Below, in pieces: positions 46,528 through 50,048 of a stretch of 64,000 bases of DNA. The position numbers and the translations under genes were made by a program. The notes beneath the pieces were generated by a model. The model was not told where the DNA came from. It did not search any database and saw only the letters and a program-made list of their open reading frames with translations. The stretch is from Mariniblastus sp. GTDB taxonomy: Bacteria > Planctomycetota > Planctomycetia > Pirellulales > Pirellulaceae. The stretch spans positions 62,001 to 126,000 of the forward strand of contig JAKVBG010000007.1 of the NCBI GenBank assembly GCA_022447605.1. Reading direction: 5' to 3'. How positions within the stretch are numbered: position 1 is the stretch's first letter; every line of letters begins with the position of its first letter.

Positions 46528-46838
46528 TTGGGTTTCCAATGCAAACGTGTTGAAAATGTTCGTACCTGTCCTGTTGCCTGTTCAACCGGACGGTTGAACT
46601 TCCAGGCTTGTATTGTACGCGATCCTATCCAACAACCAAACAAGGTCACTGCGGAAGTCTGGCCGGCATCCCTCCTTTTGTGGTATTTTTGCCATTAGCG
46701 ACCTCTGGCCAATCGTTGTGAGGGAAACGGCTCCCTAGCAACACCTGGCGGGTCTGTTGCGAGTGGAAGATTTTCGGCTTGGTGGAGCAGGGCCTTGGGC
46801 CCCGGCCGGATGGTTTGCAATCAGCGACTGACAGTCGT
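46528..46838. other. 311-base intergenic region upstream of the oxidoreductase
   Basis: It holds the promoter of the minus-strand oxidoreductase. An AT-richer stretch lies at about 46605-46700. No gene or strong hairpin was seen apart from the terminator at its right edge. Confidence 0.45.
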
Positions 46839-46870
46839 AAAAAAAAGCCGCCTGCATCCGCAAGCGGCTT
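46839..46870 (-). terminator. Rho-independent terminator of the HMA selenoprotein gene
   Basis: On the minus strand, AAGCCGCTTGC, loop GGAT, GCAGGCGGCTT forms an 11-base stem with one G-U pair, followed by a run of eight T residues. It starts 35 bases after the TAA at 46906, which supports that TAA, not the UGA at 47086, as the true gene end. Confidence 0.92.
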
Positions 46871-46905
46871 TCCATGGTCTTTCAAGACACCGTGGTCGTT
46901 GGAAG

Positions 46906-47409
46906 TTACTTCTGCGACCAACCGTTAATGTGCTTGTTGTTTTCGGACAGGTCGTCCAAAACTTTTTTGACGTCCAGACCTTTGACGGCTACGAAGGTAG
47001 CCGTAGTGGTGCCGGTGTCACATTCTAATTCTGAGATTCCTTCAACTTTGGTCAATGCGTTTCGGACCGAAACAGCACATCCGCCTCATGTCATGTTGGG
47101 CAAGTTGAGAGAGACCATTTGGGTTTCCCCATCGTCAGACATTTTCGGACTGTAAGAAGCAGTTGCCTGCTCGGCAGGTGCATCTTTGGCGGCAGCTCCG
47201 TCATCGGCTTTGGCTGCATCGTCATCCTTCTTGGCTTCATCGCCTTCGGCGTGATCGTGGTCTTCACCTTCTTCGTGATCGTGATCGCCGTCAGCAGCGG
47301 GTGGGGGGGTAGCGGCAGGCTCTTTTTTCTTTGCTTCACCGCATCCCGCCAAAATCACGGTGCTGCCCAGGAACAGGCTGAGCACCATAAGTTTCAGTGG
47401 GGTTTTCAT
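46906..47409 (-). CDS. Predicted selenocysteine-containing lipoprotein with heavy-metal-associated (HMA) domain, UxxC motif
   Basis: 167 residues if UGA codon 108 (47086-47088) is read as selenocysteine. A lipoprotein signal with lipobox LAGC (KLMVLSLFLGSTVILAGC) follows a GGAGA ribosome site. Next comes a His/Asp/Glu-rich segment (DGDHDHEEGEDHDHAEGDE) and an Ala/Lys/Asp linker. From about residue 97 an HMA domain begins with MVSLNLPNMT-U-GGCAVSVR, where families have MTCxxC. The frame then runs through complete HMA elements (VEGISELECD, TATFVAVKGL, VKKVLDDLSE) to TAA. HMA domains bind Cu, Hg, Zn or Cd through the two thiols; here one is a selenolate. A terminator follows the TAA. Alternatives are a sequencing error or a pseudogene, but the adjacent SECIS-like hairpin argues against both. 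Confidence 0.85.
47057..47088 (-). promoter_or_regulatory. UGA codon with bacterial SECIS-like hairpin
   Basis: Reading the minus strand from UGA (47088-47086), nine bases lead to GC (47076-47075), a bulged U (47074), GUUUC (47073-47069), apical loop GGUCC (47068-47064), GAAAC (47063-47059) and GC (47058-47057). All arms pair perfectly. The E. coli fdhF SECIS has a bulged U and a GGU in its apical loop at almost the same distance from UGA; SelB recognises those bases. The loop GGU starts 18 bases after UGA here, 19 in fdhF as I recall it. Confidence 0.82.
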
Positions 47410-47933
47410 CTGTTTATCTCCAAATTGAAATGAATCTCAGTGGGGCCAAGCAACACTTGGCTCCCATTACATTTTGTGCGAATCGGCTGCAGATTAACAG
47501 CGATAATCCGACAGGAAATCACGGAATATTGGACGCAAAGGTGATAAATCCGGTTCCTTTTTCCTTTTTCCGCCAGTTCGTACAGGAAAAACGGGGCTGT
47601 TTGAATGAGCCAGCGGACCGCAAAATGAGGTTGGGCCTTGACCGATCACGGCTGGGGAAGGGAACCAGTTCTTTGCCATTCAATAGGACATCACTTTGGT
47701 GCCCCTCTGATTTTGACTCGTGGGGTGGGGCGACACCACCTTTTACAGGCCGGAATGAAAGCCGTTATACTACTGGCACTGACGCGGGTAGAGCGGTGTT
47801 GCCAGGCACCTGGACAACGTTGGCGATGCCCCGGTAACAGGTGCCCTGCTTGAGATGGTTGCCAAGTCGGGTGAAGCGCCCCGGGTCGATCATCTTCTGA
47901 TTGAGGTGAGGGTCAGGTTTCGGCGAGGTTAAT
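47410..47933. other. 524-base divergent region between the selenoprotein gene and hemY
   Basis: It contains promoters for both directions. The part nearest the selenoprotein start holds a 9-base-pair hairpin at 47442-47464. Around 47500-47560 it is relatively AT-rich. The frame overlapping its left half does not encode a recognisable protein. Confidence 0.5.
47442..47464. repeat. Inverted repeat in the 5' leader/promoter of the selenoprotein gene
   Basis: GGGGCCAAG, loop CAACA, CTTGGCTCC (one G-U pair if RNA). It lies 33-55 bases upstream of the ATG at 47409. It could be an operator for a metal- or redox-responsive regulator, or a leader hairpin. Confidence 0.5.
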
Positions 47934-49409: not shown

Positions 49410-49454
49410 GACTGGCTGGGCCAGCTTAACCCTTTTTGCTTATTGGAAGAGATG

Positions 49455-50048
49455 ATGAATCTGAGAAAAATGCAGTACGTCGCGTTGTGGATCGGTATAG
49501 CCGCCTACCTGGTAACGGGTGTCCAGGCACAGGACGAGGCCAAGAGCGAAGCGGGCAAAAAAAACGCACTCGATTTCAAAGTGAAATCGATCGATGGTCA
49601 AAAGATCGATCTGTCCAAGTACACGGGCAAGGTGGTCGTAGTCGTCAACACGGCTTCGAAGTGCGGATTGACGCCCCAGTATGCCGGTCTGCAGAAACTG
49701 TATGACCAGCACTCGGAGAAAGGTTTGGTCGTGCTCGGTTTCCCCTGCAACCAGTTTGGCAGGCAGGAGCCGGGGACCGAGTCGGAGATCAAGACGTTCT
49801 GCACAGAAAACTACGGTGTTGCCTTTCCCATGTTTTCCAAGGTCGACGTGAATGGGGAGGGGCAATCACCCTTCTATAAAAACCTTTGCCAGCTCGATCT
49901 TCAGCCGAAAGGACCTGGCAAGGTCCAGTGGAATTTTGAAAAGTTCGTGATCGACCGCCAAGGCCAGCCGGTTGCCCGGTTCAGTCCCCGCACCAAGCCG
50001 AACGACCCGGAGTTCCAGAAAGTGATCCAATCGGCCCTGGCCAAGTAA
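49455..50048 (+). CDS. Secreted glutathione peroxidase-family thiol peroxidase (cysteine form)
   Basis: 197 residues from the ATG at 49455 (GGAAGAG upstream). A signal peptide (YVALWIGIAAYLVTGVQA) exports it. The peroxidatic cysteine is in NTASKCGLTPQY, where animal enzymes use selenocysteine; the second-site Cys and FPCNQFGRQEP follow, and WNFEKFVID completes the active site. The monomeric GPx family usually uses thioredoxin rather than glutathione. It reduces hydroperoxides in the periplasm. Confidence 0.92.
   Translation: MNLRKMQYVALWIGIAAYLVTGVQAQDEAKSEAGKKNALDFKVKSIDGQKIDLSKYTGKVVVVVNTASKCGLTPQYAGLQKLYDQHSEKGLVVLGFPCNQFGRQEPGTESEIKTFCTENYGVAFPMFSKVDVNGEGQSPFYKNLCQLDLQPKGPGKVQWNFEKFVIDRQGQPVARFSPRTKPNDPEFQKVIQSALAK

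Follow-up and report, generated by a model that had tools for sequence, protein, structure and literature searches.

Where does a gene end when its apparent stop codon interrupts a metal-binding motif? This question is raised by a lipoprotein gene on the minus strand of a 64,000-nucleotide stretch of Mariniblastus sp. DNA (the window). Its frame opens at ATG 47409, meets an in-frame UGA at 47088-47086 and carries on through 59 sense codons to a TAA at 46908-46906. The initial annotation read this UGA as a selenocysteine (Sec) codon in place of the first cysteine of an HMA metal-binding motif, and its coordinates are exact on the sequence. Is the UGA translated as Sec? Is this residue a metal ligand or a redox residue? 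What is the protein doing in the cell envelope? The comparisons described here indicate that codon 108 almost certainly specifies Sec. The whole chain, in which a Sec-HMA lipoprotein of the envelope would serve as a soft-metal scavenger or buffer, is given a probability of about 0.62.

Layout of the gene

The 167-residue frame contains a single TGA. The residues right after codon 108 are GGCAVSVRNALTKVEG, and the C-terminal domain starts VSLNLPNMTUGGCAVSVRNAL (U = UGA). A low-complexity linker separates this domain from the lipobox (Table 1). A lipobox and a His/Asp-rich segment had both been claimed at the outset; both are present in the window protein, but this type of linker is not general among relatives, being found in few of those whose N-termini were inspected (L014 has one). 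Lipoboxes such as VSVGC escape the pattern used, which was strict. A probable terminator downstream of the TAA was recognised by eye, and a terminator scan with loops of up to 8 nt does not list this hairpin, whose loop has 12 nt. Rfam returned sub-threshold matches only on 46600-47700, the best by E-value being RcsR1 (32.8 bits against a cut-off of 60), which covers the terminator.

Table 1. Features of the Sec-HMA gene and its surroundings in window coordinates
Feature	Position	Strand	Basis
Sec-HMA lipoprotein gene, 167 codons (UGA read as Sec) and TAA	46906..47409	-	sequence, homologues
Lipoprotein signal peptide (predicted), residues 1-22	47344..47409	-	sequence pattern match
Cys23 of the lipobox LAGC (residues 20-23)	47343-47341	-	pattern match
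His/Asp/Glu-rich part of the linker, residues 40-57	47239..47292	-	sequence
HMA domain with UxxC loop, residues 101-167	46909..47109	-	PF00403, AlphaFold2, PDB match
UGA codon 108, putative selenocysteine; second ligand Cys111 (UGGC)	47086..47088	-	sequence, homologues
SECIS-type hairpin GUUUCG-GUC-CGAAAC, GGUCC apex	47059..47073	-	comparison
Probable intrinsic terminator 3' of the TAA, stem AAAGCCGC / GCGGCTTT, 12-nt loop, T run	46839..46871	-	by eye

An HMA domain that spans the UGA

With Cys set at position 108, the Pfam HMA model (PF00403) matches residues 101-141 at 33.4 bits (cut-off 24.8), and the match runs across the UGA, in agreement with the original placement of this codon at the first Cys of the motif. 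An AlphaFold2 model of residues 94-167, with Cys for Sec, has the HMA (ferredoxin-like) fold with a mean pLDDT of 96.9. Its best match in the PDB is oxidised MerP (1osd, TM 0.82), followed by further HMA domains, of which one from a copper ATPase ranks highest. By score and by ferredoxin-like fold the domain belongs to PF00403, and the CxxC ligand pair is present as UxxC, its role as a ligand pair being predicted. Across 66 aligned domains P11, M13, V22 and L26 are invariant; U15 and C18 show no change either, as must be the case in a set selected for these two residues. At position 67, which follows directly on the second helix, 53 of these 66 domains have His, 12 have Lys and one has Gln. 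A His or Lys in a loop of this type tunes copper in other HMA proteins.

The UGA site across relatives

A homologue search in 241 genomes of the host's taxonomic family yielded 122 rows, which come from 82 genomes. An in-frame TGA is present in 71 of these rows (50 genomes), and inspection of every one places it at the first HMA metal-ligand position (71/71). The second ligand Cys, which makes the motif UxxC, is retained in 70. The only row lacking it, L083, has Arg instead, and its matched region contains an additional TAG; this locus (G062, contig C275) is a decayed Sec-HMA copy. The 66-site set used for the domain and hairpin comparisons required U plus the second Cys. It therefore lacks L083, as well as L084 and L085 (pattern misfit) and L170 and L171 (added later); all five were inspected separately and carry the TGA at the first ligand position.

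What do the relatives without a TGA have at this site? Residue 108 is covered by 22 of the 51 TGA-free rows, the other 29 matching the signal and linker part only. An HMM scan finds Cys at the Sec site in 19 of the 22, as expected if the initial annotation was right in looking for Cys at position 108. Four of these are near homologues (L012, L025, L030, L060) and 15 are weaker matches, mostly general HMA domains; the remaining three rows (L172, L176, L184) have no clear HMA domain. The UGA-bearing relatives continue beyond the UGA and do not end at residue 107, an outcome that would have spoken against Sec. The orthologues L010 (78% identity) and L011 (70%) share the single TGA with the window gene. 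Pairwise comparison of the post-UGA stretch in the three closest orthologues gives a dN of 0.08-0.13 and a dS of 0.59-1.22; judged by these rates, the coding stretch 3' of the UGA is under purifying selection among them. In a tree built on 72 columns, with many forks open, the Cys form L012 falls within the same branch as the window gene (support 99/97), and the starred branches force at least three Sec/Cys label changes across the full tree with its outgroup rows. Since a Cys form lies within the window-gene branch, Sec and Cys have interchanged. Just upstream of orthologues, at G118:C371:52168-52347 and G119:C4:133865-134059, lie frames that resemble the lipoprotein signal and linker and have no HMA match.

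A SECIS-type hairpin behind the UGA

How would the ribosome distinguish this UGA from a stop? The window RNA can pair into the hairpin given in Table 1, which starts 15 nt past the U of the UGA, has GGUCC at its apex and resembles the E. coli fdhF element. The loop of the fdhF SECIS is GGUCU. A Watson-Crick stem of at least 5 bp with a GT apex is found at 54 of the 66 UGA sites against 3.7 expected from synonymous-codon shuffles (200 replicates, maximum 12), and the four near Cys homologues named above have stems of at most 2 bp. Seven of the 12 sites missed by this strict 5-bp rule share one bulged form. Covariation was analysed in the 47 sites with Arg eight codons past the UGA, which make up 44 distinct rows; five of the 47 (L013, L055 and three of L028) belong to a branch with a shifted stem. 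In these rows 95.9% of the cells are paired. Double changes in the stem number 31, compared with 7.0 in shuffles (0/500 as high) and with 2-8 when the partner is slid. Taken by itself the window hairpin is no more stable than its shuffles (z -0.42), so the case for a SECIS rests on comparison, the energy of the single hairpin being unremarkable. Judged in this way, there is a SECIS-type hairpin directly 3' of the UGA, with compensatory changes, that is absent from the near Cys homologues.

Selenocysteine machinery

A Sec codon requires a host able to read it, and the presence of the Sec genes in the same genome was an obvious check. The window genome (a 4.99-Mb assembly, 94% complete) has them all: selA (573.5 bits), selB (377.1), selD (270.8) and a tRNA-Sec scoring 68.7 bits, to which ARAGORN assigns the anticodon tca. 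Sec genes in Planctomycetes are also reported in the available text of PMC4807772. The selD at L043:1396-3594 is part of a 733-residue frame in which AIRS domains follow an N-terminal Pyr_redox_2 domain, and its loop has Cys, not Sec (CLGCGGK).

Does the UGA form follow the machinery? Either selB over its cut-off or a tRNA-Sec of at least 60 bits (a line set from the score gap between 63.1 and 58.9) is found in 47 of 48 UGA-HMA genomes versus 74 of 193 others (Fisher P 1.6e-15, with relatedness among genomes left uncorrected). This table counts 48 of the 50 UGA-HMA genomes as such; the other two, G079 and G056, have both markers and stand among the 193. The one exception, G135 (80% complete), carries a UGA-HMA with neither selB over the cut-off nor a 60-bit tRNA-Sec. 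Two of the near Cys homologues, L030 (G005) and L060 (G004), come from genomes without selB over the cut-off and without a tRNA-Sec match; L012 and L025 come from genomes with both.

As far as comparison of sequences can establish it, the Sec coding, the SECIS-type element, the domain and their conservation all hold, and Sec is the practically certain reading of UGA 108. The selenoprotein proposed initially is borne out by the Sec genes, by Cys in relatives, by the continuing frame and by a further point absent from that proposal, the covarying hairpin.

Metal ligand or redox residue?

How might the protein work? SelB with Sec-tRNA would recognise the hairpin just 3' of the UGA, and Sec would be inserted; ribosomes missing the hairpin would leave a 107-residue lipoprotein without the HMA domain. 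The lipobox cysteine is predicted to anchor the mature protein in the envelope, with the flexible acidic/His-rich linker holding the HMA domain outside the cytoplasm. In this position the selenolate/thiolate pair is most likely a binding site for a soft metal ion such as Cu(I) or Hg(II), and the lipoprotein may act as a high-affinity metal scavenger or buffer. This is what we infer for the localisation, metal binding and scavenging role of the window protein.

Could the same selenoprotein be using its UxxC for redox chemistry? The pair would then alternate between selenolate/thiol and selenenylsulfide, in an envelope thiol-disulfide or peroxide-reducing module that is HMA only in shape. According to the available text of PMC13188914, most uncharacterised prokaryotic selenoproteins are likely redox and UxxC is a redox motif. 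The match to MerP in its oxidised form would suit such a module, as would the lack of a metal-resistance neighbour in the Pfam run on the window and, by eye, in the flanking clusters. Against it, the HMA context has been kept, with Met two residues ahead of Sec and His or Lys at position 67 in 65/66 domains. Metal-binding HMA domains have the same context. Soft-metal binding is favoured over redox because of the MerP-like HMA fold, the invariant residues and the His/Lys at position 67, and a redox role is considered rather unlikely, though it is the main competitor. Bacterial selenoproteins are mostly regarded as redox proteins; in this family Sec is presumed to be a ligand for metal, and the domain is a simple one that has been studied well. 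As natural Cys versions exist for direct comparison, the contribution of selenium to metal binding versus catalysis can be tested.

Neighbourhood and other metal proteins

Is the gene part of a metal operon? Of nine window neighbours searched with Pfam, one has no match; the others are a PQQ-type propeller protein, two methyltransferases, a Gfo/Idh oxidoreductase, a flavin amine-oxidoreductase, a glutathione peroxidase, an M28 peptidase and a beta-lactamase-fold protein. No metal gene, and no mer gene, is among the nine. The glutathione peroxidase (49443-50048, plus strand; PF00255, 145.6 bits) has Cys in its ASKCG site in a Sec-capable genome. For a wider view, the ORFs of 40 flanking stretches, of L039 and of the window were clustered and the clusters judged by eye. 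Those present in at least four loci comprise the HMA genes, housekeeping genes that surround one paralogue, a gene of Gfo/Idh type next to the window orthologues and general families (sulfatase-like, kinase-like, regulator-like), with no conserved neighbour recognisable by eye as a metal gene. An operon-based assignment of function was dropped, as no metal gene was recognised in the shared neighbour clusters by eye or among the nine window neighbours by Pfam.

Does the HMA lipoprotein have a partner for metal transfer? With PF00403 (E up to 0.01) the window genome gives two HMA matches, both of them UGA forms (the window gene and L062), and no third. The genome also encodes two heavy-metal P-type ATPases (L159, L160), neither of which has an HMA match; L159 carries the N-terminal Cys motifs CPMC and CPMH. 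With no obvious HMA partner for a chaperone relay, scavenging or buffering would be favoured over hand-off.

Architectures and multi-Sec proteins

Ten proteins were run through Pfam for their architectures. The first architecture is that of the window protein, a lipoprotein with an HMA domain. In the second, seen in four proteins, the HMA domain is combined with a YceI domain (96 to 113 bits); L062:1995-3026, on contig C90 of the window genome, has YceI followed by a UxxC HMA and is the second Sec-HMA protein there. The third has an N-terminal region weakly similar to LTXXQ (L055) or Spy (L015), both below cut-off.

Some proteins carry several Sec-HMA domains. L028:391-1740 of G062 encodes a single lipoprotein of 450 residues in which each of four HMA domains has a UGA of its own, an array seen in G062 only among the inspected loci; L164 and L165, from other taxonomic families, have two Sec-HMA domains per frame. 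A Cys-rich insert (CCASKKACCKAC) lies between the first and second HMA domains of L028:391-1740. Might such multi-Sec envelope proteins store or deliver selenium? Selenoprotein P holds selenium in animals, and both the four-domain lipoprotein and the two-domain frames would lend themselves to such a role. The other inspected proteins, the window one included, have a single Sec-HMA domain, however, and the Sec occupies the ligand position of a folded domain with its partner Cys in 70/71 rows, which makes storage or delivery improbable. Whatever its role, the four-Sec lipoprotein surpasses the 1 to 3 Sec per protein (2-3 in a small subset) given in the available text of PMC13188914. At L068 (G044), a Cys-HMA (55.9 bits) stands behind the Sec-HMA if the intervening TGA is read through; the gene may end at that TGA.

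Other readings of the UGA

Is the UGA a genuine stop after all, with a 107-residue lipoprotein as the product and the HMA sequence decayed or unused? An ORF list made with table 11 does end the gene at 107 aa. A stop would hardly recur at the same place in all 71 TGA rows of 50 genomes, be followed by sequence under coding constraint with a covarying hairpin, and face Cys at the site in TGA-free relatives; a true stop or decay was rejected in view of the conserved UGA, the downstream coding sequence and the hairpin, and retains a very small probability. Sequencing error was likewise rejected, as the TGA recurs in 50 genomes. Translation of the UGA as another residue, by an altered code or a suppressor tRNA, would account for the open frame alone and has next to no probability, given that UGA ends 15 of the 34 long non-overlapping window ORFs (a changed genetic code is ruled out by this ordinary use as a stop and by the tRNA-Sec), that selA, selB, selD and a tRNA-Sec with anticodon TCA are present, and that TGA-free relatives have Cys at the site.

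Known Sec-containing metal proteins

How does the window protein compare with known systems? MerP (TIGR02052), also a secreted single HMA domain, is its best match in both NCBIfam and the PDB. The score is 37.1 bits against a cut-off of 92.55, however, and the window protein differs in being a lipoprotein with a long linker and no mer gene among its nine neighbours. NF045683 (MerT_CopZ_Se, a MerT/CopZ fusion-like heavy metal transport selenoprotein) matches the window HMA domain with its C-terminal part; the match (32.5 versus 375 bits) is limited to the HMA end of the model, leaving the MerT part unmatched. NF041115 (UxxU_metal_bind) is likewise a small HMA-like domain with Sec in its ligand loop, but it has two Sec (UxxU) where the window protein has one (UxxC); the window protein scores 27.7 against 95 bits. 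Neither the NF045683 nor the NF041115 cut-off is reached by any of the 15 proteins scanned, the best NF041115 score being that of L165 (70.9 versus 95). When the 66 domains were compared with NCBIfam at E 0.001, MerP was matched by 65 and NF041115 by 58, a tally in which scores were set against cut-offs for the first member only. Filing the protein as a MerP, UxxU or MerT/CopZ selenoprotein was rejected, the scores being under the cut-offs. The CopZ and Atx1 copper chaperones share the HMA fold and the MT[C/U]xxC loop; the CopZ models, however, stay below cut-off for the 15 proteins scanned. These chaperones are cytosolic and Cys-based.

Sec in metal-handling proteins has precedents. The GOS survey lists MerP, with 2 sequences, among its selenoproteins (available text of PMC2398784). 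Table 1 of PMC13188914, a 2026 review, covers 119 families/subfamilies in the text available, including a P-type ATPase with UxxC, a MerT-type protein and a UxxU protein with 2 Sec described as a putative mercuric reductase. The P-type ATPase resembles the window protein in having UxxC in a metal-handling protein (compared by motif only), but the window protein is a predicted stand-alone envelope lipoprotein and no ATPase. Sec-containing MerP/MerT-type proteins, mentioned in the initial annotation, are on record: MerP, a MerT-type protein and a MerT/CopZ-like fusion exist in print or as NCBI models. Its suggestion that the lipoprotein architecture may be new also stands, since by name, domain or motif the 119 families of that table, as available, include no HMA lipoprotein and no YceI entry. 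In the open-licence literature no paper was found on selenoprotein and YceI or on Mariniblastus and selenocysteine, and no title among the matches listed describes a Sec-HMA envelope family. Because Sec is known in MerP, in a MerT-type protein, in a MerT/CopZ-like fusion, in UxxU and in a P-type ATPase, the novelty lies in the family, its architectures and its spread. No earlier description of the Sec-HMA envelope family, its fusions, the four-Sec array or the spread over Planctomycetota appears to exist in the searchable literature; an earlier sighting in the supplementary candidate table of PMC4807772, a source available in part, is possible.

Spread over Planctomycetota

Is Sec-HMA confined to the host's family? 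A profile search (E 1e-6) of 392 genomes drawn from the phylum found a match in 111, most rows being without TGA. Among the matches listed, 13 TGA loci lie outside the host family, and in 13/13 the TGA occupies the first ligand position; the closest outside locus listed, L088 (98.7 bits), belongs to another family of the same class. Eight of the 13 have one extra residue in the loop (UxxxC, for example MTUGAGCPP), some of them with a hairpin such as GTGCGGTCTGCAC, and L167 also has a UxxU domain. A broader picture may be sketched tentatively, at somewhat less than even odds: in Planctomycetota, Sec would be a regular soft-metal ligand of the envelope, displayed phylum-wide on secreted Sec-HMA modules (UxxC, UxxxC, one UxxU) with lipoprotein anchors, YceI or Spy-like regions and up to four Sec per protein, and would have fully displaced Cys-HMA in some genomes. 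Since gene callers lacking a Sec model would truncate such genes at the UGA, annotations of Planctomycetota may miss a metal-handling function. The UxxxC form (MTUGAGCPP type) was seen in planctomycetes of other families at L111, L162, L163, L165, L166, L167, L168, L169 and L154, and several UxxxC loci have, by eye, a signal peptide or lipobox and a hairpin with a GGTCT loop.
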